Below are positions 6,227 to 56,100 of a DNA stretch of 64,000 nucleotides, in pieces. Both the position numbers and the translations under genes were made by a program. Every line of letters starts with the position of its first letter. The stretch's first letter is position 1. Source of the stretch: Bolinopsis microptera. Lineage: Eukaryota; Ctenophora; Tentaculata; Lobata; Bolinopsidae. The notes beneath the pieces are model-generated. The model saw only the letters and a list, made by a program, of their open reading frames with translations, was not told the origin of the DNA and did no database searches. Location of the stretch: NCBI RefSeq assembly GCF_026151205.1, contig NC_087073.1, positions 18,752,837 through 18,816,836 on the forward strand, read 5' to 3'.

Positions 6227-9200
6227 CTGAAATGTAAACAAATCTGTTATAATAATGTTATAATATGTCATAATAACCCCACATAATGTTGCATAATAGG
6301 CACATAATTGTGATTTACACCATAACACCATGTAAGTTGATTGATTGATTATTATGTCTGTCATTATGTATTAAATGTGCTGCTGAAACTCATCGGGCGG
6401 AGGATTCTCCTTGTCAATATAGTTTAGAGCTCAGGAAAGGTCTATAAATAATGCTGTTGCTACATGCTGAATATAATACGTGTCTCTACACTGTGATGAT
6501 TGGTCTGAAGAGTGATGTAAGAGTGGGGAGATTGCCGGCTAAGAGTGGGGGGAGAATGGAGATTGCCTGCTTGTCCGTGCCTTGGACCAACTTGATCTGA
6601 CTACTTGACTAGGCAAGTAGGCACACGCGACTTGTAGATCTTTTAAACAACCAGAGATCAGATACAGTGTAACAGTGTTACTGCCTTTGCGGCACACAAT
6701 CATTTTGATGTTTCAGAAATTTTCCGGCCAAAGTTTGATGAAACTTTAGGGAGGTCAAAATAAGTCATTACCAGGAATAGGATCCTCAGTCGGTATTGAG
6801 ACATTTATATGAGATATGATATCTGGGTGCAGGGATTATGCTGCACACCGCGCACCACACTGCACCTGACTGCACTGCGTGTCACACTGCACCTGACTGC
6901 ACTGCGTGTCACATCTGTGCCACACCATACAAAACACTTATCACATATATCTTAACTAGTATCCATTGTAGAGAGAGAGAGAGAGAGAGCGGGCTCCAAA
7001 GGGAGGGGTTACACAGCAACTGCAAGACTTTACTGACAGCACAGGTGTAATAAACTCAAGGTAAAGCACTTGGCTCACTATCAACTTTTTTACGTCAACA
7101 GTGCACGTGATAGGTTTTTGAGCCGCGCAGCAGCCGATAAAGGGCTCACGTGACCGATACGTATCCGTCACGTGACCCCTATATAAAGCCATTAGTTTAA
7201 CTATTGCCAGCGTTTTCTGGTATGATATGATATATCTTATATAAGAAATATCTAGATATATTAAATCAGGAGGGTAGGACCGGTCGGAGAAGCTGCACTA
7301 TAGATAGTGCCGGGATACATTCAGAGAGACTAGGATAATTCTACAAATATGTTCAAATACCATACCATACATGTTGACAAATTTTGGAATACCGGGAATA
7401 AGTAGCTTGCGGTGTTGTTAGCTCTCAGTGTGTTCGACACAAATTACAGATATTCGGAAATCGGAGATCTGTCCGTTCATACCAAATGTTTGGGGTGCAG
7501 TAAATATATTTAGATATATTCAGAGCATTTCTTTTTGGTTGACTGTATAGAGCTATGGAGATGACAAATTTGGCCATGACACCGATGGAAGAAAAGGCTA
7601 ATTCAGTATATTATGTTGGAAAAAGAGTCACCCAACCTGAAGAAACTGTTCTGAAGGACAACCGTATACACACCTGTCAGCTGCCCAACCAGAATCTTCA
7701 TGCAAATCCAAGTACATTTACCGATTCTTGAGAAGTGCAGAGAGTCGAGCAAGATATCCAAAATGAAGTCTTTCTTAATTTCTAAAATTCCATGAATTCT
7801 ATGACTCGCATTATAATGACAAGGTCATGATGACCTTTACAGTTTACAAGCTTGATTAACGATTATAGCTTCTGTCTCCAAGTCTTTTTTTAATTTCATG
7901 CTTTCATATGTGTCCCCGAAGCCATCTAACTACAACTAAGCTCGCTCAGCTGTATTTTTGACAGGAAGAAGTAAACACGGCATTGTGTGTCATAGCAGAG
8001 AACTTGCCCCACCCAAAGCTTTAAGCGGGGTTGCAGAGCTTCAGATCTGTTTAAAGTTGTAGCTTACTTGCAAGAACCAAGGATTGGGGTAAAGAAGTGC
8101 GTTTACTACGCCTGAACCCATATTTAGGTTCAGCTTATCTCAAGTCTGCTAACGCTGATAATCCTAATAATATAACGAATATTGTAAGTTGAAGAGTTTG
8201 CCTAAGTTCTGTAGACATTACATGGACTGGTGGAAAACGATTTGTAGAATCTGGCTCATATTGGATAATGACGTGTGACCGTGCGATGACCTCCTAAATG
8301 ATATAATGCATGATAATTGAGGTGTTAAGATCCTCAAGAATATGACAACTTGCCAAATGCTGCAACAATTTGTCTCGATAATTTTAAAATCAAAATAAAG
8401 ATGCCATGCACGTAGAACACATATAAATGTTATATATAAATCATTAAAATCAAACCAAATCTCAACAAAATGTCAACAGAATCTCAACAAGCCAGACAGA
8501 AGCTCACCTCGTACTCGTTGTTCATCTGTTCGAGGGTGCTGAGGTAAAGTTTCAAGTCCTCCTCGGTTTCATGGGTGGCCGCTTGTGTGCTGTTCAGGTT
8601 TCGGCTGGTCGTGTCTGCTGCTGAGTGACGGTTCTGAGATTTGCCTCGTCGTGAGTTTCGCAGCACCACTGTGTCACCTGGAAATGGTGGATTTAGAAAC
8701 ATTGGGAGGGAGCTTTTTGTTATCGATAATGCATAAATTATCGATATCAAAAAATGAATTTGTTATAAATAAATTTGTCAATATTCTAAGAAATCCTATA
8801 GTAGCCGGTAGCAACAAAAGATGAATTTTGATAAATCGTGACTCTAAGGAGTGCCCCGGAAAAGATCGGTCGCTATTTGAGACTATCAGTCTATATGTTT
8901 CTCTGTAGGCAATTGTAAGGGTACTTTGCGCGGGAGTAAACCACTTGATAATTTGTAATTATAGGACTGCTAGAATTTCGATAAAACGTGATTTTAAGGA
9001 GTGCCCCAGAGGCCAGAGAAGATTGAATTTCGGACAATCAGTTAATATGTCATTTGTAGGCGATTGTAAGGGTACTTTTTGTGGGAGTATTTGATAAGAT
9101 AAACGGATAATCCACTAAGTAGAGAAGACACTAAGGAGTGCCCGTGATAATGAAACATAAAGAAAATGAGATAATATGTAACAACTTCTTGACATTTGAA

Positions 9201-38248: not shown

Positions 38249-41200
38249 ATGGTAAGTCGAATGTTTACACACTTTTAACGCTAGGCATTGATATTGTACA
38301 AAACCTTGCCGCGAATCTCCGATTTATCTTGTTCTGGTCTCACGACGGGTTCAGAGCACGTGGTCACCATAGTCTTGTATAGAAGCCGGATGCTTTCGAG
38401 AAGTCCAGCAATGATCCATTTATCGCTCCAACCACATTGACTTGGCCCTTAGAAAGTGAAAATGCTGTACCCATAGTTATCATGATACAATGTCATGAAT
38501 AACAAGTTTATACAGCTAGAAGAATTTCTTATCTTACCTGGATTTAGTCTCTCGTGGCTCGTCCTAAAACATGAGAATACAACATCTACCGATGTCATCT
38601 TGAGTCACTTGTGAGATCTATGACAATCAGCGATGGGAGTCTGTCAAAACCTATGTAGTTTTCACCTGCCTATCACAACTTCTGTTCACATGTGGTCAGA
38701 TGTCTTAACCATGTCATGATACACACGTGTGCTCATCAAATTGAAATAGAACGATGATAGACATGTCACTTCCGACCTCAGTTCAGTCTTAGGCTTGACA
38801 TGTTTTAATGGAACTCGTAGCTAGCGCAAGCATGTCATCTTGTTCAGAGAATTTCTCGGAAATTTGAACTTAATTCCTCAGAATGTGATAAGTGCAAGTG
38901 ATCAGAGAAAATGTCAGGAGATTGGGAGATGTCTTGTGAATTGTAGAGCACATGTTGTCAGTGTCGTCCTGGTTCTCACAACTTAATATTTCAGGTTAAT
39001 TTCACAGTCACAGAATTGCGGAGGGCAATGGACTACCCAAAAAACATCCGTAACATGTCAGTTATTGCTCATGTTGATCATGGCAAATCTACCCTGACCG
39101 ATTCTCTTGTCTCCAAAGCAGGTAAAGTTCTCGATTCGATTGTTCAAACGTTATTATTTGTATTAAGAAATGCTGCACCCATAGTTATCTTGATACTATG
39201 TCATGAACAACAAGTTTATGCAGCTAAAACAAATTCTTATCTTACCTGGATTTAGTCTCATATGGCTCGTCCTAAAACATAAGAATACAACACATTTGAC
39301 TATTAAGTGGCCTTTATTTGTGTTACGTTTGGACATGGAGGACATCCATATCATACCTGATGGTTGTTGGTTTACTTTCCCGCCATAACATAGTATTAGT
39401 ATAACCCATTATTACTGTTTTCATTTGTTGTGCCATTATTGGTGCGGCGGGAAATGACAGGATGAATCAAATTACAGGTATCATTGCCAACGAGAAAGCT
39501 GGAGAGGCTAGGTTCACTGACACAAGGAAAGACGAACAGGAGCGATGTATTACCATCAAATCCACCGGTGTTACCTTGTATTACGAACTGGACGACTACA
39601 ACATGCAGTATTTGGATGACACTCAATTCCACGAGGGAAAGAATGGTTTCCTCATCAACCTGATCGATTCACCCGGTCACGTTGATTTCTCTTCTGAGGT
39701 ACGATTTTGTGCGTGTAGTTATTAATTATGGTGTTCTGCAATGTTGTGCACGATTTTATTGATTATTGATTCTTTGAAGATCATGCTTTTATTTACCTCT
39801 GTTTTCAATGAATAACCTCCACTCAAGCTCAGTTCATAATCAATTAAAATTATTTTATTTTCATTATTTGATTATAATCTGGAAATGCTGCACCCATAGT
39901 TATCATGATACAATGTCATGAATAACAAGTTTATGCAGCTAGAATAATTTCTTATCTTACCTGGATTTAGTCTCTCGTGGCTCGTCCTAAAACATAGGAA
40001 AACAACATTTTTCGGCAAGAGCCATTCAGTCCGTAATTTGCTGCACGTCTAGTGGAATCTGATATGGCAGTTTCTGAAAATATTATTCTTTATTTAAAAT
40101 GTATTTTATTTTATGCGGCTCATGTAAATGTAGATTGAAGAAGTGTATTGAACTGAAATGAAAAGATCTGTACTAATTTGCATTACAACTATTCAGGTAA
40201 CCGCTGCTCTGCGAGTAACTGACGGAGCCCTGGTAGTGGTTGACGCTGTCAGTGGTGTCTGTGTGCAAACTGAGACCGTCCTCCGACAGGCTCTTGCTGA
40301 GAGGATCAAACCCGTACTTTTCCTGAACAAGATGGACAGGGCTCTTCTCGAGCTCCAGCTGGACAAGGTTGGTGGAAAGTTTAAAGTATATGCGTATAAT
40401 GTACTTTTTTATGCACTGTAGTTATTCTGCACTATGAGTACGATTGATAATTTATTTTATTGATGGTTTACTCTTTTAAGATAATGCTCTGTATTCATTG
40501 AAAAACACCCACCTCGTTATTATCTGGAAATGCTGCACCCATAGTTGTCTTGGTACTATGCCATGATAACAAGTTTATGCAGCTAAAAAAAATTCTTATC
40601 TTACCTGGATTTAGTCTCTAATGGCTCGTCCTAAAACATAGGAATACAAAATTTGTTGGTTTAAATTGGCCTAATCATTCGCAAAATCCATTCAGTCTAT
40701 AATTTGCACTGCAATGAAACTAAATCTTGTAATAATCTTCAGGACACTCTGTACGACACATTCCGTAAGATCGTAGAGAACATCAACGCCATCATCACCA
40801 TCTACGGAGCTACCGGTGGTCCCGAGAGGATGGTTGGCCCTGTTGAGGGTACCGTCGGATTCGGTTCCGGTCTCCACGGGTGGGCTTTCAGTTTGAAACA
40901 ATTCGCTGATACCTACACCAAGAAAGATAAGGCAAAGTGCGACAAATACATCCCGAAACTGTGGGGAGATCACTACATAGATCAGGCTGGAAAGTGGTCT
41001 AAGAAGCCTGGTGAGGGAAAAATGCGTGGTTTCTGCAAGCTGATCCTCGACCCAATCTTCAAGGTATTTTGAGACATTCCGTGAACATGATTTTCAACAT
41101 GCTGTACCCATAGTTATCATAATACAATGTCATGAATAACAAGTTTATACAGCTAGAAGAATTTCTTATCTTACCTGGATTTAGTGTCTAATGGCTCGTC

Positions 41201-44200
41201 CTAAAACTTAAGAATACAAAATGCCATAACGTTGCCATCCAAAGCAACCCATGGTACTTGTTATGAAGATTAAGTCGTTATCCCATACGCATACATCATG
41301 ATGTGCCTGTTCAGTAATTGATTTTAATTTCAGATCTTCAACTTCTGCATGAAGTCCAACGAACCACTAGAGGCCATCAAATTCGCCGAGAAACTGAAGG
41401 CTGAGTTCACCTCTGCAGAGAAAGATCTAGAGAAGAAAGCTCTTTTCAAGATCATCATGAAGAAGTGGCTGCCAGCTGGAGACACCCTACTGGAAATGAT
41501 CTCCATCCATCTTCCTTCTCCCGTAACTGCCCAGAGATACAGAGCTGAGATGTTGTACGAGGGACCCCAAGACGATGCCTACGCTAAGGGTATCCAAGAC
41601 TGCGATCCTAAAGTGAGAGATGAAGCTTTTTTTTTGTACAGTTGACTTCATTGGCAAATGCAGATGATTTAAAGCTTCTACGAGCTGAACTTTTTAAAAG
41701 TAAAATCAGGTTTGAAGTCGCTTATGTGGTATATCAAATGATCATTATCTGACCATCAGGCACCCCTCATGATGTACATCTCCAAAATGGTACCGACCAA
41801 CGACAAAGGACGATTCTACGCTTTCGGACGTGTCTTCTCAGGAACCGTCGGATCTGGAATGAAAGTCAGGATTATGGGACCCAACTTCATCCCCGGAAAG
41901 AACGAAGATCTCAACATCAAGACCATCCAGAGGTATTTTAAAATTTGCATACAACTTGTACTAGACTATATACTTGTGGATTCTGCTTTGATTATGAATC
42001 GTTATTTCATCTCTGTTCATGTTTAACAAATCCGGCGGTCGTAATCGCTTAAAATATGTAGATCAAGCTCTATTATAATCTGGAAATGCTGCACCCATAG
42101 TTGTCTTGGTACTATGCCACGATAACAAGTTTATGCAGCGAAAAAAATTTCTTATCTTACCTGGATTTAGTCTCTTATGGCTCGTCCTTAAACATAGGAA
42201 AACAATATTTTTCGGCTAAAATTGGCCTTATCATTCGCAACGGCTGTTTCTACAAATACTATTCTGTACTTAACTGCCATCACCGTTCTTACTCCTGAAC
42301 ATAGAATATCGGGGAATAAAACACGAATAACCCATATTTTGCCTTGATCACTGATTTATTTCATCTCATGTTTTCAATTTCAGGACCGTTCTGATGATGG
42401 GTCGATATACTGAGCACATTGACACTGTACCCGCTGGTAACACAGTTGGTCTTGTCGGAGTTGATCAATACATTCTCAAAACCGCTACCATCACCAACGA
42501 GAATGGCAAGGACGCTCACAACATGAAACAGATGAAATTCTCTGTATCCCCTGTGGTCCGTGTCGCTGTCGAGGCCAAGAACCCTCAGGATCTCCCCAAA
42601 CTTGTGGAGGGACTCAAGAGGTTGGCCAAGTCCGATCCTATGGTGCAGTGCTTCAACGAGGCAAATGGTGAACATATCATCGCTGGTGCTGGAGAACTCC
42701 ATCTTGAGATCTGTCTTAAGGATCTGGAGGAGGACCACGCCTGTATCCCCATCAAGGTTTGTAATTTTAACATACTTTCGTTTTTCATTAAACTCGAAGA
42801 TGCTGCACCCATAGTTATCTTGGTACTATGTCATGAATAACAAGTTTATGCAGCTATAAGAATTTCTTATCTTACCTGGATTTAGTCTCTTTTGGCTCGT
42901 CCTAAAACTTAGGAATACATAATACACACGTTGTTACTCGTTAAGGCTTACGATTTTAAAAATATTTCACTGATTTCTGTCAACGAACACTGCATAATGA
43001 GGCTAACTTTTCAGAGATCTGACCCAGTTGTGTCGTACAAGGAATCTATCGCCAACGTCTCTGACATGATGTGCCTGTCTAAATCACCTAACAAGCATAA
43101 CCGTATCTTCTGTATGGCTCAACCCCTCGGAGAGGAATTCTCTACAATGATTGATGACGGAACCATCACCCCAAGACAGGACAACAAATCACGATCCAAG
43201 TAAGTTTTATTTTCCCTTTCAGGTTCATCTGAGAATTAAATTGGATTAATTTTGTGAACACCATTCTGCGTCTGTTATTCAATATTCATACAGTACAGAC
43301 CAGGATTAATTACAACTGTTCAACAGCTGACCTTTACCAAATCCTGGCTCACTTTGTAGGTGTTATCAGCACTGCTAAATGTGCCGTCCAGATCGATTTC
43401 GCAGTGACCATAACATTCGCGCGAGTGTGCTGCATTGTGCTATCCCTAGCTCATATGCTCACTGCACTATCCCTTGCGCTGCTGAGGTGCTCGCGCTCAT
43501 GCGAAATGCTGTGCCTACCATCTGCACTCTGCAGTCACAAGAACTTGCTACTACGCGGTGAATAAATTACATGCACTATTTAAAATCCTGCTTGTTTCAC
43601 GATCGTAAGAAAGTTGACCGTCTTCCGATGAAAAATATCTATGTTTGGATAGAATTTGTTATAAGAATTAAAATAAAATCACCCATATATCGGCCTGCCA
43701 CCCCAGTCCATTAAGTTGTCTAAATGATTATCTCCGATCATCATTGGAGAATCACGCTGTATTCAGAAGTTGGAATTTACAAGAATCAGCATTGAAACCA
43801 GCGTGATGTCCACATTTACGACTTGTTAAGCAGCTTACCTAAAATGCTTATCTAAAGTGATTTAGAATATGCTTAATTTATATTTATAGATTATGCTCAT
43901 CTGTAGATTAAAACAAAACAAAAATAAATGTCACCTGACGTTTATGGTATTATGAAAATTTCCTTTGGAGCTTTTCTGCATCCAAAGTTATCTTGCTACC
44001 ATGTCATGATAACAAGTTTATACAGCTAGATGAAATTTGTATCTTACCTGGATATAGTCTCTTATGAATACAAACTATTTCTTGTCAGCTATTCAGACGA
44101 AAACTGCAGCCTCTCTTAACTGATTAATTAATAACTAAATAATAATAATAAAACATTATGCGAAGCAGCTGAAGACTGAACATTTTAAGGGGAGGGGGGG

Positions 44201-47200
44201 GGGGTGGTTGGGTTCAGTCTGATATTTTTCTGAAACTTGTTTTCGAGATAACAGTCCAAAAATTACTAGGGCTGGTGACTGGTGCTCGCGTTACATGACA
44301 TCACGTTACAATGATAAATCACATAACTTAAAACTGTCTCTGAAGAACAAGACTTAATGTATCAACTAGCACACCTCCTATTTTAGAACATCGATTCAAA
44401 CAATGTATTTTCTAAAACTTAGACCTTAGTGATATAACACAAACACGATCGACAATTGCGCGACCCTGAGAACTTGCATTCACTATTCAGCCCACAATCG
44501 GGATATTTGTATTTGGTGTCTTCGCTCACAGCTTCATTGCTCGTATCGACTCCATGTTGGGAATGTTGTAGGTCAGCTAATTAGTGGAATTGTCCCTTTG
44601 GTGTGGTAATGTTATTATACATTCTAACTATTGCACAACCTACAATTATATCGCATTGTCCATTTTTCGTCTATAATGCCTACACGATAAAAGAGCCGGA
44701 TATAACATTTTCCGGTAGCCTCAGTTGGATTTATTAGCCCCACACAAGTTTTACCGTCATCTAAACTTTACAGAGGAGACCTGCCGAAATAAAACAACGC
44801 TGCAATTTACCTCTAAGTTTAAACAACGACATACCTTATTAAACCTAGTGTAACTTGACACTGTGATAATTAATTTATGATACCATCTGACAGTAGCGGT
44901 GTGCTGTGATGGGGGTGTGTAAATTAAATCTACTCGTGAAACCAGTATTATATTTGAACAGAGTTGTGATTTGTATTTAACAATATTCACATTCTTCGAC
45001 TGCAGTCGGGGGGGGGGGGGGGGGGGGGGGATCAGGTACTAAGTGCCGTACGTGACGTCGACTAAGTGCAGTTTTGGACTTTACAAAAAGGACCCACCCA
45101 CCCCCTTCACGGTACTAACTGCTTTTTTGGATAATATTTAGGACACCCACCCCCTTTTGCCGGCTTCTGCGGTACTAACTGTTGAGAAATAACGGTACTA
45201 ACCGAGTCTGGGTATATAAAATAAGATACCCACTCATAAATTGCTTTGAACAGCTCATTAAACATTGGAAATGGGCAAATTATACCCACTATTTAGTAGG
45301 GGTTTTGTTTTCAATGTAGTCGAATTAGATAAAAAGTTACAACAAAATTTAAAAAATGACAAAAAAACCTCAATACAAAACCCATTCCCAAAATTGAAAT
45401 TTGAGGTAAAATGGTTTTTTTGGGGTTGGACACCCAAAAAATGAACCCCTTAGTACCATGTACTAACTGTTTTTCTGGGAAATGAGCAGCAGACCCACCA
45501 CTTCGTACAAGAGTACTAACTGCGTTTTGGAAGAAAATATGACCCACCCACCCAACGTCACGTACGATTCTGACCATATGATCCCCCCCCCCCCCCCCCC
45601 CCTGCTGCAGTGCGCCTATATCTACCTTCTCCAATATCACATATTTGCTAACAACTAAAACCTACTAGGATTATAAAATGGCTGATGATTTTAAGATAGC
45701 CCAACCGAAGCAATACCAGAGACTATTCCTGAAAGATGATATCAGACCTGACGGTCGAGCACTGACCGGCTGTAGAGAAGTAAAGATCCACGTCAATACA
45801 GTGAGCAGTGCTCTGGGAAGTGCGATGGTGTGCTGTGGAAATACCCGTGTTATAGCCGGGATCAAGGGCCGGTTTGCTGAACCCACCATAAACAATCCCA
45901 GCTCCGGGTACCTGGTACCCAACATGATCCTGCCCATGGCCTGCAACACCAAGTACAAACCAGGATATCCCGCTGACTCGGGGGTGGCCATGTCAAACAA
46001 GTTGGAGACCCTCATAACAGACGTTACTGACCTAATGGAGCTGTGTGTGGTGCCCGGAAAGGTGGTGTGGTGTCTCAATCTGGATATCGTCTGTATTAAC
46101 GACGACGGTAATGTGCTGGACGCAGCCGTGTTAGCGTTGTCGGCGGCCCTCAACAATTGCTGGCTACCAGCTACTCATGTGATAGAGGAGACAGGAAGAG
46201 TTGTTGTGGATCCTGAGGGAGAGAAGACAAAATTAGAGCTGAAGTTCATTCCTATATCAGTCACCTTATCAGGTTAGTTTATCCTCACTTTAGCTGTAAC
46301 ACTAAGTCGAGTAAGCTATCAAAATAAAATATCACTATCTTCCTCGAAATAATGCACGAAAACCTAAAAAATTTGACGAACGTTTTGTTTTCTATCGATG
46401 CAAACATCCTAATGCCCAATCTCCCCAGTTTTCGACGATCAAACGTTACCGGACCCATCAGAAGATGAAGAAAAGATCCAGTGTGGCTCACTGACCTGTT
46501 GTATAGACGATCAGAGCAAAATAAGGGCTATGTGGTCAAGTGCTAATTTGGCGGACGATGTTTTATCAGCCGCACTGATTTATGTCAAGAAAAGGGCCTC
46601 TGTCTTGTTATCAGTTCTTCAGAAGGTCTCAAAGACCTCGTGACCACTGACCACGTGCTTTAACCATATCTCACTACCCCTCAAATCTCAATATCAAATA
46701 TAACGAATGCTAAGTTAACACGCCTCGTGAGACTGGTAGGTTTTCTTAATATAAAGGAACCTTCTTCTCTCCCAACCTTTGCCGATGTGGACTCGTTAAG
46801 ACGAGACCAAGAACAGAGAATACTGGACACAATTCTTATCATTTGTATGGGGCTGTTCGCATACTACATTGAAACTGTGGGTCGGGAAAACCTTTCAGAA
46901 GTGGGTGAGTGGAGGTTAAAACACGGCTACAAAGTGAAAACGAAACATGCGAAAGGTCCCCCAATTCTGTGCTTACTCCTTCATTTTTTACACAAATGAT
47001 GATATCTTTTCAGCAGCTTTACTATCTTTGGTTTTTACTGTTTAACTAATTACACCAATCCAGTCTGAATACATGACGTGACTCGCGACTGAGTCACCAA
47101 GAGGGTCTTCTTGAATGCACATTATAGAATGAAAAGTGCAAATTGACAACATTTGAAAAGCAGACATTTTTCCGCGCGCAATCTGCTACGCGCATCAAAA

Positions 47201-49069
47201 TTTATCGACAAACCGTGTTAGATCTCGACGGTCACACCGACTCATGTATTAATAATGTGTATAATTGTAGGCGGAAATGTTTGAACATGATATTTAAAAC
47301 ATAATCTTACAGATTAATCGCCGACAAGTTCACAGAGGAAAACGATTTGCTGACAAACTGGAACCGAACTGATGCTCTTAAGATCTGGTGTTTCGGACCT
47401 GACCAACAAGGTCCCAACTGCGTCGTTGATGTTTCCAAGGGAGTCCAGTATCTGAATGAAATCAAGGACTCTGTCGTTGCTGGATTCCAGTGGGCTGCCA
47501 ACGAAGGTGTATTGTGCGAAGAGAACATGAGAGGAGTGCGAATCAACATTCACGATGTAGCTCTGCACGCTGATGCTATCCACAGGGGAGGTGGTCAGAT
47601 CATTCCCACCACTCGACGTGTCTGCTATGCCTCCGTCTTGCGGGCTGACCCATGTCTTCTTGAACCTATTTATCTGTGCGAGATCCAGTGTCCTGAAGCT
47701 GCTGTTGGAGGTATCTACGGATGTCTCACCAAGCGAAGAGGAATGGTGTTCTCAGAATCTCAAGCTGAGGGAACTCCCATGTTCTACGTCAAAGCTCACT
47801 TGCCAGTCATGGAATCTTTCGGTAAGTCTCAATGCATAGTTTCTGATTTTAATTCCAACTTCACGAATGTTACACTATCGAAATAGACAATCATTTGTAT
47901 CGTCCACATTTTGACACATTCTTTTCAGGATTCTCCAGCGCACTGAGGGCCGCAACTGGTGGACAAGCTTTCCCACAATGCGTATTCGATCATTGGGCTG
48001 TAAGTACCCTCAAATTGTTTATTAAAATGAGTTTAGTCGAACATTCTTGATTCTACGACCAAGAAATTTTATCAGGAACACCTTAAAACAACTGATTAGA
48101 TTTCAAATACTCTTGTTGAAATACTACTACCGTAATTAATAGCTAAGGCGTTGTCATCTTAAACGTGGCATTACATAAATGGGGTGCAAATTTACAAAAA
48201 TTAGTTCGATTTTCTTTAAAAAAAGGTGTAAAGATCTGTATATAAGATAAGTTGCTTTTAGACAGGATACTAAAATACAGGGTGGCCCAAACTACCCACA
48301 CGAAACCCTTTAATAACTCACATTATTGGTATCAGAATTGCCTAAAATAATTGGTATCAGAATTGCCCTAAAATTTCAGCGAACATAGATATGGGTCAAA
48401 CTTAAATTTCCTGAAATTTTTATAAAGTTTCATCGATTACAGAGGGTGTGGCAAACCACTCCCTCTTTTTCTCTTTTGTCGCCATAAAGTGAGAAAGTTT
48501 TGAGTAAGGAACTCCAAAATTTCCAGACACATGTGGTTTGATAATTGAAGTGCTTTCCCAAAATTTCAAGTTGGTTGTTTACAACTAAACCGAGTTATGA
48601 CCATTTAAAAATCTGGCGGATACATGATCTCTCACCTAATCTGTGATTTCTTCACTCAATCAATGGTCTGATTGGTTAGAAACAGCTCATAGGACATAAA
48701 TTTAGTTATACAATTATATACATAAATTTAGTTAGCACCTTCAAAATATGGGTAGGTAATAATCATAAATGCAGGGAAGATAATAAAATGATAACAAAAC
48801 TAAATGTTGGTACGGTATGTCCGTAAGAGATGCCTACGTCAGAGGAAATATGCCCAAATATCTATAATTGCAATTGGCGTTTAAATACAGAAAGTATACG
48901 CCTAATCTGCACTGATAATAGTGATCCTCATCATATTTTATTTCAGGAGATGCCAGATAACCCAATGAAAGAGGGAACAAAGACCCACACTATCATCATG
49001 AAAACAAGGAAGAGGAAGGGACTTAAAGTTGAACTTCCAGTTTTCGAAAACTATTTCGACAAGTTGTAG
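38249..49069 (+). CDS. EEF2: Translation elongation factor 2 (eEF2), 12 coding exons
   Basis: Coding exons: 38249-38251 (ATG only), 38995-39121, 39478-39698, 40197-40367, 40743-41063, 41334-41612, 41760-41932, 42384-42756, 43015-43199, 47313-47821, 47929-47999, 48947-49069. All phases agree and give 851 aa (human 858). eEF2 is the GTPase that translocates mRNA and tRNAs on the 80S ribosome. Visible hallmarks: P-loop AHVDHGKS, switch region [12 protein letters not shown] (the region regulated by eEF2 kinase), [12 protein letters not shown], and the diphthamide-loop [11 protein letters not shown] with its modified His; the protein ends ENYFDKL. Seven introns carry one box H/ACA snoRNA each, and intron 9 (4.1 kb) contains a snoRNA relic and the complete EXOSC8 gene. 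An ATTAAA at 49202-49207 is a possible poly(A) signal. Confidence 0.97.
38463..38584 (+). ncRNA. Box H/ACA snoRNA, copy 1 (eEF2 intron 1)
   Basis: A 122-nt copy. The hairpin 1 base stem is TGCTGTA/TACAGC, a U-A pair where most copies have C-G (TGCTGCA/TGCAGC). H box AGAAGA, hairpin 2 stem TTCTTAT/ATGAGAA, ACA box at 38579-38581 with 3 nt following. Upper stem GTTAT/ATAAC with CATGA/TCATG. Both pockets match the other copies. Confidence 0.9.
39171..39292 (+). ncRNA. Box H/ACA snoRNA, copy 2 (eEF2 intron 2)
   Basis: A 122-nt copy with stem TGCTGCA/TGCAGC, H box AAAACA, hairpin 2 stem TTCTTAT/ATAAGAA (perfect 7 bp) and ACA at 39287-39289. Guide strands CCCATA and AAGTTTA (pocket 1) and CTTACCT and TAAAAC (pocket 2) are identical to the other intact copies. 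Confidence 0.92.
39886..40007 (+). ncRNA. Box H/ACA snoRNA, copy 3 (eEF2 intron 3)
   Basis: A 122-nt copy with H box AGAATA and ACA at 40002-40004. Hairpin 2 stem is TTCTTAT/ATAGGAA, where a U-G wobble replaces U-A. Pockets unchanged. Confidence 0.92.
40531..40651 (+). ncRNA. Box H/ACA snoRNA, copy 4 (eEF2 intron 4)
   Basis: A 121-nt copy with H box AAAAAA and ACA at 40646-40648. The upper stem reads GTTGTC/GATAAC with TGG/CCA where other copies have TGA/TCA, a compensatory A-U to G-C exchange. Pockets unchanged. Confidence 0.92.
41100..41221 (+). ncRNA. Box H/ACA snoRNA, copy 5 (eEF2 intron 5)
   Basis: A 122-nt copy with base stem TGCTGTA/TACAGC (same compensated pair as copy 1), H box AGAAGA, hairpin 2 stem TTCTTA/TAAGAA and ACA at 41216-41218. 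It starts 37 nt after the 5' splice site, leaving about 112 nt to the 3' splice site. Confidence 0.92.
42087..42207 (+). ncRNA. Box H/ACA snoRNA, copy 6 (eEF2 intron 7)
   Basis: A 121-nt copy with H box AAAAAA, hairpin 2 stem TTCTTAT/ATAGGAA and ACA at 42202-42204. The upper stem carries the TGG/CCA variant, as in copy 4. Intron 6, only 147 nt long, has no copy. Confidence 0.92.
42801..42922 (+). ncRNA. Box H/ACA snoRNA, copy 7 (eEF2 intron 8)
   Basis: A 122-nt copy with base stem TGCTGCA/TGCAGC, H box ATAAGA, hairpin 2 stem TTCTTA/TAGGAA and ACA at 42917-42919. It occupies nearly half of a 258-nt intron. Confidence 0.92.
43975..44075 (+). pseudogene. Decayed eighth snoRNA copy (eEF2 intron 9)
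   Basis: The first hairpin is recognisable (AAGTTATCTTGC, GATAACAAGTTTATACAGC), with an H-box-like AGATGA and the 5' part of hairpin 2 (ATCTTACCTGGA). The left guide of pocket 1 is altered (ATCCAAAG). About 20 nt of the 3' strand of hairpin 2, including the GGCTCGTCCTAAAAC segment, is deleted. An ACA remains at 44070-44072. It is probably non-functional. Confidence 0.8.
45008..45602. mobile_element. 0.6-kb MITE-like element with poly-G/poly-C ends
   Basis: It starts with about 23 G followed by ATCAGGTACT and CGTACGTGACG, and ends with CGTCACGTACG, ATATGAT and about 20 C, so the ends are inverted repeats. CTGCAGT flanks both sides (45000-45006 and 45605-45611, with 1-2 nt of slop), a candidate target duplication. 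Inside, GGTACTAACTG-like motifs and ACCCACCCAC tracts recur every 60-80 bp. No coding capacity. It ends 75 bp before the EXOSC8 start codon. Confidence 0.75.
45678..46643 (+). CDS. EXOSC8: Exosome ring subunit RRP43 (EXOSC8), nested in eEF2 intron 9
   Basis: Two coding exons, 45678-46272 and 46429-46643, join in phase 1 (TCA G / TT TTC) to give 269 aa (human EXOSC8 276). The N-terminus [19 protein letters not shown] with RPDGR, the [20 protein letters not shown] block, [30 protein letters not shown] and [16 protein letters not shown] follow the RNase PH fold of the RRP43 branch; after the intron, [14 protein letters not shown] opens the second half. In the family it is a catalytically inert subunit of the six-member ring of the RNA exosome (nucleus and cytoplasm; rRNA processing and decay). 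Same strand as its host gene; its promoter must lie in or next to the MITE at 45008-45602. EXOSC7 is the nearest alternative but fits less well at the N-terminus. Confidence 0.88.
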
Positions 49070-49331: not shown

Positions 49332-50430
49332 ACCATATTAAAGTATATCCCCGGGTCAAAATCGGAAAAAATCCTACATTTTAATATACTTTAATATAAT
49401 GTACCTACAATTAGTAGATTAGAAGATAAGCCAGTTGCTAGTCCCCTGAACTCATACTTCATATATTTTGGCTCATAAATTGGTCAAGTATCAATATCTT
49501 TGAACAAGACTAACTTTACATGAAAGGTAAATCTAATCCATACATTAAATAAAACAAAATTTTTCACATGATTGTTTATAATGCAGGTATATTAAAGTAT
49601 ATATCCCGGGTCAAAATTGAAAAAATATCTACATTTTAATATACTTTAATATGGTTCAAAATTTTACTGGAGAAAATGTAGGTATATTAAGTATATTAAA
49701 AGGGGGGGGGCAACCATATTAAAGTATATTAAAGTATATCCCCGGGTCAAAATCGGAAAAAATCCTACATTTTAATATACTTTAATATACCTACAATTAG
49801 AAGATTTATATTCTTCGTTAAGATTTACCTGATGAACTATATTTTTCACTCAGATTCGCAAGATAAGCCTGTTTTAGGACTAGTACATGAATTTCCATCC
49901 AGATTGGTCAAAAATTGGCTGAGCTATGAGCTTTAAAAAATATGCCCATATTTGGGCATACGCTTTTGTCAAAATTCGCTTTTGCCCAAATTCGATAAAA
50001 TTTCAATATTTTTTAATGATACAAACTCTATGTGAAATATATAACTCAGTGTTTGTTGGATATAGTGGATACTAAGTAAAAAGACCTCCATGAACAAAAT
50101 TGGGAAAATTGCACATAATATCTCGGTTCAGAATACTAGCCAAAATAACTTCATTAAAATTGAAATAACTCCATCAGTTTTCAATATTTTTTCAAGAACT
50201 TTTTGGAATCGATTAAGGATTGCATATCAAGCTTATTTTGAGCAACAATTTTTGATGTAGGCCTCCAAGGAGATAGGGATATATTAAAGTATATTAAAGT
50301 ATATCCCCGGGTCAAAATCGGGAAAAATCCTACATTTTAATATACTTTAATATGGTTGGCCCCCCCCCCCCCCCCCCCCCCAAGATCCTACATTTTAATA
50401 TACTTTAATATGGTTGCCCCCCCCCCCCCC
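49301..50430. mobile_element. 1.1-kb element with G/C-run ends and a 6-bp target duplication
   Basis: The left end is a G run followed by CAACCATATTAAAGTATAT. The right end is its complement, ATATACTTTAATATGGTTG and a C run. AATCTT lies directly outside on both sides (49295-49300 and 50431-50436), a good target-site duplication. The interior holds three complete 60-70 bp mini-palindromes and a second copy of the right end (C run near 50358-50380). No coding capacity. Confidence 0.8.
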
Positions 50431-52100
50431 AATCTTCTGTAGACTAGTCAATAGATTTTCTTGTATCTCAATAGCGGCGAGCTGGAGGCCATCTCAGATT
50501 TAATCCGAGCTCTCTAAATTGATTTAATAGTTGTTCCTGATAGAGGGAAATATTATATTAGCTGCTTTGGTCTTGAAAATCATGTGACCTCTTCTTTTTT
50601 TTTTTCAATTTCCAGTCCAAAATCGAATACAAAATTTTGAGGGCATATTTCAAAATTCTGTCGAGAGTCACCTCTCCTAAACACTAGATGATCCCTAGAA
50701 CACATCCTGAATCGGCCATCTCACAGATTTAATATGAGCTCTCTAAATTGATTTAATAGTTGTTCCTGACAGAGGGAAAGGATGATGATCAATTACTCTA
50801 CACTCGACTGTCACGTGACTTCTTCAACCCGTTCTCTAGCTGGTCCTGAACGACTATTTGAAACCTTAACCCTCTAATCTGATCTCAACCCTAACCCTAA
50901 CCCAATCCTTAACAAAAGCATATGCTGAAATCCTAACCACTAACCCTAACGAAATATTTGACTAACTTCCTTATACGGTCATATCACGTGATCGAGACAG
51001 TTTTTCGCCAATATCTCGTCAGGGGAGCATTTTAACCCTATGTCATGGAGGGTGCTTCGGAATCAGCGTCCGAAAATACATCGATTGAACATTGAAGTTG
51101 GTTTCAACTGTAGGGGGCCCTTTTAGAATTAGAACAATCTCGTAGATCGACTGCACGCTCGCTAAAAGAGAGGAGCAAGCAATAAACTCAAAACTAGCGT
51201 CTAGCAAGCTAAATAAATTATGCCCATGTTGTAAAGGTTTAATTGGAACTGTTTGAAACTCATTCGTTGTGAGAAACTTGATTGACGATGTCAACCCATC
51301 GAGATCGTTGCTCTGCGAAGCAGAGCAACGGTCGACGATGCGAAGCAAAAATGAATCGATGATGCGAAGCAAGAATGCTAGTTCGCGTCGAAGCGGCGAA
51401 GTCGGAAGTCCTCCAATGAGAAACATTCGCCTAACCACTAACCATGTGCTTTCGCGCCACTGCAAGGGCTCTGGATAGACTTAGAGCAATGACAAACACT
51501 AAAATGGGCCCACCCCAGTTTAATTATTGATTAGTGATTAGGGTCAAGGTTAAGGTTATCACAAATATCAGAGATATTATGACATATCAACATGTTATGT
51601 ATCCTTTTTCATCCTCGCGCGCGAAAAGTGGCATGCAACGTATGTCAAGGTTAAGGTTAGGGTTACGTTTTAATAATTAATACGTTCAACACTGACACTA
51701 CTATATAGCAAACAATTTGAGATCATGAATACGATGTTGTCACATTGAAAGGTTGAATAATTCCTTTCCTGATATATAATAAATGATATATAATAAAAGC
51801 CTTTTCCTTGTCGCATCAAACGGGATCGATAGAAATTTACTCAAGAAAACGTTAGGGTTAGGCAATCAAAGTAATGGGGGTTATTTATATTTGAAGTGGG
51901 ATAGATCGACATGGGCTCGCTATAAGTATAATAAATTCGTCGTACCGAGCTGATTACGATTCAGTAAAAATTATTTCAAAGAAACTGATACTTTTGAGTT
52001 ATGGACATTTTTTGTCATACGTTGTATGACCCGTTGTAGCGCGATGCGTTACTGTTGACTGTGCCGCGCCGCGCACTTAATAAGGCTTCTCACATCCAAA

Positions 52101-53130: not shown

Positions 53131-56100
53131 GGGGGGGGGGCAACCATATTAAAGTATATCCCCGGGTCAAAATCGGAAAAAATCCTACATTTTAATATAC
53201 TTTAATATAATGTACCTACAATTAGTAGATTAGAAGATAAGCCAGTTGCTAGTCCCCTGAACTCATACTTCATATATTTTGGCTCATAAATTGGTCAAGT
53301 ATCAATATCTTTGAACAAGACTAACTTTACATGAAAGGTAAATCTAATCCATACATTAAATAAAACAAAATTTTTCACATGATTGTTTATAATGCAGGTA
53401 TATTAAAGTATATATCCCGGGTCAAAATTGAAAAAATATCTACATTTTAATATACTTTAATATGGTTCAAAATTTTACTGGAGAAAATGTAGGTATATTA
53501 AGTATATTAAAAGGGGGGGGGGCAACCATATTAAAGTATATTAAAGTATATCCCCGGGTCAAAATCGGAAAAAATCCTACATTTTAATATACTTTAATAT
53601 ACCTACAATTAGAAGATTTATATTCTTCGTTAAGATTTACCTGATGAACTATATTTTTCACTCAGATTCGCAAGATAAGCCTGTTTTAGGACTAGTACAT
53701 GAATTTCCATCCAGATTGGTCAAAAATTGGCTGAGCTATGAGCTTTAAAAAATATGCCCATATTTGGGCATACGCTTTTGTCAAAATTCGCTTTTGCCCA
53801 AATTCGATAAAATTTCAATATTTTTTAATGATACAAACTCTATGTGAAATATATAACTCAGTGTTTGTTGGATATAGTGGATACTAAGTAAAAAGACCTC
53901 CATGAACAAAATTGGGAAAATTGCACATAATATCTCGGTTCAGAATACTAGCCAAAATAACTTCATTAAAATTGAAATAACTCCATCAGTTTTCAATATT
54001 TTTTCAAGAACTTTTTGGAATCGATTAAGGATTGCATATCAAGCTTATTTTGAGCAACAATTTTTGATGTAGGCCTCCAAGGAGATAGGGATATATTAAA
54101 GTATATTAAAGTATATCCCCGGGTCAAAATCGGGAAAAATCCTACATTTTAATATACTTTAATATGGTTGGCCCCCCCCCCCCCCCAAGATCCTACATTT
54201 TAATATACTTTAATATGGTTGCCCCCCCCCCCCAATCTTCTGTAGACTAGTCAATAGATTTTCTTGTATCTCAATAGCGGCGAGCTGGAGGCCATCTCAG
54301 ATTTAATCCGAGCTCTCTAAATTGATTTAATAGTTGTTCCTGATAGAGGGAAATATTATATTAGCTGCTTTGGTCTTGAAAATCATGTGACCTCTTCTTT
54401 TTTTTTTTCAATTTCCAGTCCAAAATCGAATACAAAATTTTGAGGGCATATTTCAAAATTCTGTCGAGAGTCACCTCTCCTAAACACTAGATGATCCCTA
54501 GAACACATCCTGAATCGGCCATCTCACAGATTTAATATGAGCTCTCTAAATTGATTTAATAGTTGTTCCTGACAGAGGGAAAGGATGATGATCAATTACT
54601 CTACACTCGACTGTCACGTGACTTCTTCAACCCGTTCTCTAGCTGGTCCTGAACGACTATTTGAAACCTTAACCCTCTAATCTGATCTCAACCCTAACCC
54701 TAACCCAATCCTTAACAAAAGCATATGCTGAAATCCTAACCACTAACCCTAACGAAATATTTGACTAACTTCCTTATACGGTCATATCACGTGATCGAGA
54801 CAGTTTTTCGCCAATATCTCGTCAGGGGAGCATTTTAACCCTATGTCATGGAGGGTGCTTCGGAATCAGCGTCCGAAAATACATCGATTGAACATTGAAG
54901 TTGGTTTCAACTGTAGGGGGCCCTTTTAGAATTAGAACAATCTCGTAGATCGACTGCACGCTCGCTAAAAGAGAGGAGCAAGCAATAAACTCAAAACTAG
55001 CGTCTAGCAAGCTAAATAAATTATGCCCATGTTGTAAAGGTTTAATTGGAACTGTTTGAAACTCATTCGTTGTGAGAAACTTGATTGACGATGTCAACCC
55101 ATCGAGATCGTTGCTCTGCGAAGCAGAGCAACGGTCGACGATGCGAAGCAAAAATGAATCGATGATGCGAAGCAAGAATGCTAGTTCGCGTCGAAGCGGC
55201 GAAGTCGGAAGTCCTCCAATGAGAAACATTCGCCTAACCACTAACCATGTGCTTTCGCGCCACTGCAAGGGCTCTGGATAGACTTAGAGCAATGACAAAC
55301 ACTAAAATGGGCCCACCCCAGTTTAATTATTGATTAGTGATTAGGGTCAAGGTTAAGGTTATCACAAATATCAGAGATATTATGACATATCAACATGTTA
55401 TGTATCCTTTTTCATCCTCGCGCGCGAAAAGTGGCATGCAACGTATGTCAAGGTTAAGGTTAGGGTTACGTTTTAATAATTAATACGTTCAACACTGACA
55501 CTACTATATAGCAAACAATTTGAGATCATGAATACGATGTTGTCACATTGAAAGGTTGAATAATTCCTTTCCTGATATATAATAAATGATATATAATAAA
55601 AGCCTTTTCCTTGTCGCATCAAACGGGATCGATAGAAATTTACTCAAGAAAACGTTAGGGTTAGGCAATCAAAGTAATGGGGGTTATTTATATTTGAAGT
55701 GGGATAGATCGACATGGGCTCGCTATAAGTATAATAAATTCGTCGTACCGAGCTGATTACGATTCAGTAAAAATTATTTCAAAGAAACTGATACTTTTGA
55801 GTTATGGACATTTTTTGTCATACGTTGTATGACCCGTTGTAGCGCGATGCGTTACTGTTGACTGTGCCGCGCCGCGCACTTAATAAGGCTTCTCACATCC
55901 AAAAAGTTGGATATGATCATCAGCTACAGTGGCTGTAGCTGATGATCATATCCAACTTCAAGAATGTTTGAAGCGATATCTTATGACTTGGTTGATTGGT
56001 GAAATTTCAATTTTGCTTCTCTCGACCTTGTTTGGTCTGTAACTTCATCATTTACTGTTTAATTATAAAATCCTTTGAAGGGCTTCTTGTACGGATTGTT

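Follow-up and report, generated by a model that had tools for sequence, protein, structure and literature searches.

In a window of 64,000 nucleotides (nt) from the ctenophore Bolinopsis microptera (contig NC_087073.1, positions 18,752,837 to 18,816,836, forward strand), introns 1, 2, 3, 4, 5, 7 and 8 of the eEF2 gene each contain one conserved block of 121-122 nt, in the sense orientation of the gene. From their boxes, pockets and fold, we consider it very probable that these blocks are a family of intron-encoded box H/ACA small nucleolar RNAs (snoRNAs) with seven complete-looking members. A first-pass annotation of the same letters had counted seven copies; the seven complete-looking ones stand, but it missed a decayed eighth in intron 9, which is 85% and 82% identical to the two copies that we used as genome-search queries. 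The gene and the copies, all on the + strand of the window and with z-scores for fold energy, are as follows.

38249-47999, +: host gene eEF2, from the start codon to the end of exon 11 (continues downstream), placed with Pfam and by exon reading
38463-38584, +: probable H/ACA snoRNA copy 1, intron 1; H box AGAAGA; two-hairpin minimum-energy fold, z -2.97
39171-39292, +: probable copy 2, intron 2; H box AAAACA; minimum-energy 5' domain differs, z -3.48
39886-40007, +: probable copy 3, intron 3; H box AGAATA; two-hairpin minimum-energy fold, z -3.40
40531-40651, +: probable copy 4, intron 4; H box AAAAAA; two-hairpin minimum-energy fold, z -4.50
41100-41221, +: probable copy 5, intron 5; H box AGAAGA; two-hairpin minimum-energy fold, weak z -0.98
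42087-42207, +: probable copy 6, intron 7; H box AAAAAA; two-hairpin minimum-energy fold, z -4.03; 3' pocket change TTAAAC
42801-42922, +: probable copy 7, intron 8; H box ATAAGA; minimum-energy 5' domain differs, z -1.07
43974-44066, +: decayed eighth copy, intron 9; 3' hairpin lost; 66.3 bits with model R1, z -0.14

The seven copies share a mean pairwise identity of 90% (minimum 84%), and similarity drops sharply at the block edges: with the same global alignment, and no random baseline, the 60 nt upstream and downstream of the blocks are 62% and 60% identical. The conserved block described in the first-pass annotation is borne out by the figures of 90% against roughly 60%. A 20-mer from the block core occurs eight times in the window at up to three mismatches, against 0.00 expected.

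When RNAalifold was run on the seven-row alignment with no fold supplied, it returned a pair of hairpins connected by a hinge, both containing an internal pocket. The hinge matches the H box pattern ANANNA in all seven copies, and the distance from the upper stem of the pocket to the box is 14 nt in both hairpins of all seven on the consensus fold, both as the annotation had it. It had also placed an ACA box 3 nt from the end of each block. The ACA is there in seven of seven, with three further nucleotides up to the predicted 3' end, but the spacing is partly definitional because the block end was set by the ACA. The guide elements are given here for copy 3, with their variation over the seven copies.

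39893-39898, +: 5' pocket, left guide arm CCCATA; 0 of 6 columns variable
39927-39933, +: 5' pocket, right guide arm AAGTTTA; 0 of 7 columns variable
39941-39946, +: H box AGAATA; ANANNA in 7 of 7 copies
39956-39962, +: 3' pocket, left guide arm CTTACCT; 0 of 7 columns variable
39988-39993, +: 3' pocket, right guide arm TAAAAC; 1 of 6 columns variable
40002-40004, +: ACA box; ACA in 7 of 7 copies

Just one of the 26 guide-arm columns varies (in the right arm of the 3' pocket of the intron 7 copy), and the upper hairpins vary more than the guide arms (9/28 columns in the 5' hairpin and 4/25 in the 3' hairpin). In the consensus fold, 96.5% of 231 cells pair, a figure that falls to 31.9-49.3% when the fold is slid by one to three columns, and three pairs are changed on both sides. 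In the outer stem of the 5' hairpin, one C-G pair becomes U-A in introns 1 and 5, and is also U-A in a truncated copy near RPL4 that is described below. Folded singly, five of the seven copies have the two H/ACA hairpins as their minimum-energy structure. In introns 1, 2, 3, 4, 5, 7 and 8, respectively, 32, 32, 33, 33, 29, 33 and 31 of the 33 exact consensus pairs can form, at 4.8, 3.8, 4.4, 0, 4.8, 0 and 3.2 kcal/mol above the minimum, and in introns 1, 3 and 5 the minimum-energy structure is itself a close H/ACA variant. An antisense reading was rejected, the two reverse strands tested (copies 1 and 3) folding at z -0.82 and -1.48.

The window was also scanned with a descriptor that asked for two pockets in the minimum-energy fold, an H box, an ACA and a spacing of 12-17 nt, applied to stretches of 122 and 132 nt ending after each ACA, the length of 122 having been taken from the known blocks. 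On the + strand, 7 of 1376 ACA sites matched, at five loci, all of them eEF2 blocks (introns 1, 3, 4, 5 and 7), against 1/1256 on the - strand and 2/1283 and 1/1309 in two Markov shuffles. The scan missed the blocks of introns 2 and 8, where the minimum-energy fold departs from the consensus in its 5' domain.

Several observations count against the assignment to the H/ACA class. The statement that every block folds into two hairpins holds for the consensus and for the five minimum-energy folds, but not for copies 2 and 7 (introns 2 and 8), in which the 5' domain prefers another structure. The z-scores of the copies in introns 5 and 8 are weak, with 35/200 and 30/200 shuffles, respectively, folding as well. 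Column shuffling is not a decisive control: for the percentage of paired cells, the changed cells and the covariation score, 12-13 of 500 shuffles reach the value of the alignment, and they reach the counts of pairs in 233/500 and of types in 426/500. Searching with H/ACA family models, the check that the first-pass annotation had proposed, gave nothing: no Rfam family matched the window at its gathering cut-off. The best two alignments were weak, though full-length, and both were to the intron 2 copy, which belongs to neither family: plasmodium_snoR27 (RF01602; 28 bits against a cut-off of 50) and SNORA35 (RF00566; 22.5 against 39). Even so, the sequence and structure features by which an H/ACA snoRNA can be tested are present, although two copies differ in their minimum-energy fold, and the annotation's interpretation is supported.

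Searches of 264.65 Mb of assembled, unmasked genomic DNA with two different copies as queries, all candidates being scored, found the same nine places: the seven blocks and the decayed intron 9 copy, all in eEF2, and one truncated copy near RPL4. All nine are sense to the neighbouring gene. The ninth is:

C2:4088735-4088820 (86 bases), sense to RPL4: truncated copy downstream of RPL4 exons, found by DNA search

This copy retains the 5' hairpin and an ANANNA box (ACAATA), and its 3' hairpin is broken off; a 16-mer of the missing 3' half had no match in the RPL4 stretch (L014). One of the exons upstream of it matches Pfam Ribosomal_L4, and no further RPL4 exon was seen downstream of it in L014. 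It likely sits in an RPL4 intron. The same stretch holds a shared 133-nt pair at 8186 and 8677, a candidate second intronic family noted by eye only, and a tandem array with a 26-bp unit (L014:1254-2307), which lies upstream of the RPL4 exons.

With the blocks removed, four of 42 flank pairs scored higher than any of 200 first-order Markov shuffles, in one case by a small margin (42 against 40). All four pairs lie among introns 3, 4 and 7, and most other flanks are unrelated or diverged. The related flanks fit a duplication of intron stretches within eEF2, at least for these three introns. In a tree of the nine copies every fork fell short of the mark for strong support; the best-supported one joins introns 1, 3 and 5 (82/93). 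We suggest that duplication from one eEF2 intron to another accounts, at least in part, for the copies; a seven-copy H/ACA family in one gene with some flanks shared makes a case for duplication in cis.

Two explanations outside the H/ACA class have to be weighed against these data. One is that an ordinary interspersed repeat, either a short interspersed element or a snoRNA-derived retroposon, landed by chance in several eEF2 introns. The sharp block edges, the mostly unrelated flanks and the truncated copy adjoining RPL4 exons elsewhere on the contig would all fit. Yet wide occurrence outside eEF2, which the annotation had named as the observation that would speak against its snoRNA reading, was not what the searched DNA gave: eight of only nine places are in eEF2, every one is in sense, and introns 3, 4 and 7 have common flanks. 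The pattern TGGCTCGTCCTAAAAC, at up to one mismatch, finds each of the seven blocks plus four other places, against three for the reversed-pattern control. On these grounds we rejected a widespread repeat for the DNA that the searches covered, and regard a chance insertion of this kind as barely credible. The other explanation is a structured intronic element that acts in eEF2 splicing, for example through CUUACCUGG, and is not released as a snoRNA. There is one sense-strand element per intron, and CUUACCUGG equals part of what we take to be the 5' end of the U1 small nuclear RNA (snRNA). The left arm of the 3' pocket with two stem bases (window 39956-39964, and the corresponding position of each of the six other copies) reads CTTACCTGG, presumably nine letters of that 5' end. 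A splicing role, however, needs neither the boxes nor the 14-nt spacing. The distances from block to splice sites vary across introns (36-211 nt and 91-410 nt), only two of the nine listed eEF2 donors are GTAAGT, and intron 6, of 147 nt, has no block at all. We hold a splicing element to be very unlikely.

If the blocks are H/ACA guides, the two pockets point to a candidate target in 28S ribosomal RNA (rRNA). The 5' pocket (CCCAUA / AAGUUUA) pairs with 5'-CAAACUU[UA]AAUGGG, and the 3' pocket (CUUACCU / UAAAAC) with 5'-GUUUUA[UC]CGGUAAA, each with 6+5 pairs (11/13), and the two sites lie at a distance of about 62 nt from each other within a single conserved stretch of 28S. Both guides score 9 on this 171-nt stretch, a score that shuffled pockets reached there in 0/2000 and 2/2000 trials. 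The site of the 5' pocket, the downstream one, lies within the 28S primer ACCTATTCTCAAACTTTAAATGG given in two arthropod papers (PMC3691250, PMC7596027). That backing covers half of the stretch, the upstream site having none.

Against a 28S target stand several points. The stretch is an approximate human 28S sequence, and it was chosen after it had been recognised. Two positions are left unpaired in each duplex of pocket and 28S. Over 5130 rRNA letters, made up of the species' own small-subunit (SSU) rRNA, its own error-ridden large-subunit rRNA and the 171-nt stretch, shuffled pockets reached the score of 9 somewhere in 14/400 and 21/400, so that each match alone is modest, and only the occurrence of both in one stretch is striking. 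An 18S site of the species itself, UCAACUU[UC]GAUGGU, pairs with the 5' pocket at 10/13. Searches of the species' genomic DNA for the 28S target stretch gave no match, and viral contigs were also empty. At the 28S target region, the one ribosomal DNA (rDNA) unit found, located through its 5.8S, is error-ridden and the next is a run of N. This locus (G000:C5:2305900-2313060; L004, L010-L012) consists of an error-filled rDNA unit, either a pseudogene or poor assembly, followed by a clean SSU and then the N run.

By a rough count on approximate sequence and numbering, chicken 28S-1612 would lie about 90 nt after one of the two sites and about 152 nt after the other. In human 28S, the pseudouridines numbered 1536 and 1582 are near the computed 1525 and 1587, although the numbering is too rough to equate them with the sites. 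We know of no yeast guide for these two candidate 28S sites. For chicken, a term search of the main text of PMC2653536 yields no H/ACA target at 28S-14xx or 28S-15xx.

We lean towards these two 28S positions as the guide targets. The 5130-letter control led us to lower that estimate slightly and to raise correspondingly the one for a genuine H/ACA snoRNA whose real target lies elsewhere (18S, a spliceosomal RNA or none), which is compatible with the class assignment and remains a substantial possibility. The own 28S is unreadable at the sites, the 18S site pairs nearly as well with the 5' pocket, either match taken singly could be chance, and the scan covered rRNA only; against this, both pockets find 11/13 pairs so close together in one conserved stretch. 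A further reading, also compatible with the H/ACA class, is that only some copies still function and the rest are drifting. The intron 9 copy has decayed, many shuffles fold as well as those of introns 5 and 8, and those of introns 2 and 8 favour a different 5' domain. Boxes and spacing, however, are kept in all seven and every guide base in six of the seven, while most flanks have diverged, and we think partial function rather unlikely, if well worth bearing in mind.

RNAs of the H/ACA guide class direct pseudouridine modification of rRNA. In the known pathway, an intronic snoRNA is freed by splicing, debranching and trimming, is protected by the dyskerin complex, and presents the uridine to be modified in its pocket. 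By this route, each copy would be freed from a spliced eEF2 intron, debranched and trimmed, and the released RNA would bind dyskerin, Nop10, Nhp2 and Gar1 and so be protected. It may then guide pseudouridylation of 28S at two positions, using its 5' pocket for 5'-CAAACUU[Psi A]AAUGGG and its 3' pocket for 5'-GUUUUA[Psi C]CGGUAAA. Several copies could provide a high guide dose tied to a translation gene. Taken to its full extent, this would be an undescribed H/ACA family with seven functional eEF2 copies, guiding two neighbouring 28S pseudouridines that lack a known guide in yeast and chicken, in a lineage that added a pair of modifications and raised the guide dose by filling eEF2 introns. As a whole we regard this proposal as doubtful. 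The seven copies are in any case natural variants of one guide, and show which of its bases tolerate change.

The identity of the host gene rests on Pfam matches to EFG_III in exon piece 42385-42756 and to EFG_IV and EFG_C in exon region 47335-47830; of the three exon pieces tested, one (40743-41063) had no Pfam match. A listing of boundaries placed the first eight introns and the donor of the ninth, and exons 10 and 11 were placed by reading. Also by reading, the gene extends beyond 48000 with 11 introns or more. The annotation's phrase "nearly all introns" is therefore to be corrected to seven of at least 11, all within the first eight. Intron 9, of about 4.1 kb, harbours a second gene on the same strand (window 45678-46643), which by reading has one intron and in which Pfam finds RNase_PH (E 1.2e-21 on 45675-46274). 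It apparently encodes an exosome subunit, of the Rrp43/EXOSC8 type. As snoRNA ends are trimmed by the exosome, this is a curious neighbourhood. Further downstream is a direct duplication (window about 49733-51950 and 53545-55750, spacing about 3.8 kb), in which several open stretches repeat with identical translation at +3803 to +3812.

H/ACA families with more copies are known in Drosophila. As for single hosts, chicken EEF2 carries in its intron 6 the box C/D snoRNA U37 (GGgCD45), which targets 28S (PMC2653536), in keeping with the annotation's remark that vertebrate EEF2 is known for a C/D snoRNA. U37 shares with the blocks an intronic position, the host and a 28S target, but it is a single-copy box C/D RNA and unrelated. 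The EEF2 passages of PMC7941889 deal with diphthamide. The annotation also called the amplification unusual. Seven copies are indeed unusually many, but amplification with one copy per intron is documented in PMC1821038 and PMC2653536, and its interest was overstated for that reason. In Drosophila mfl/Nop60b, DmSnR60 a-d (box C/D) occupy introns 6-9 and snm60 a-b introns 10-11, one per intron (PMC1821038). As in eEF2, isoforms of one small RNA are set one per intron in a single gene for a ribosome-related protein, in mfl in consecutive introns; unlike the seven box H/ACA blocks, DmSnR60 is box C/D and has four copies. Of the same class are the chicken H/ACA RNAs GGgACA4 in PABPC4 (introns 6, 7 and 10), GGgACA22 in TBRG4 (introns 2 and 6) and GGgACA39 in NAP1L4 (introns 7 and 9), likewise copies in several introns of one gene, although there are only two or three of each, with other targets and other hosts (PMC2653536). 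Human H/ACA families are also multi-copy and intronic, but human data in PMC8178906 suggest that they spread by retroposition and that members rarely have a host in common, whereas all seven complete copies here are in one host, some with common flanks. The kind of arrangement is thus already known, and what is new, within the literature consulted, is the copy number and the family: seven probable H/ACA copies in one protein gene exceed every case with which we have compared them.

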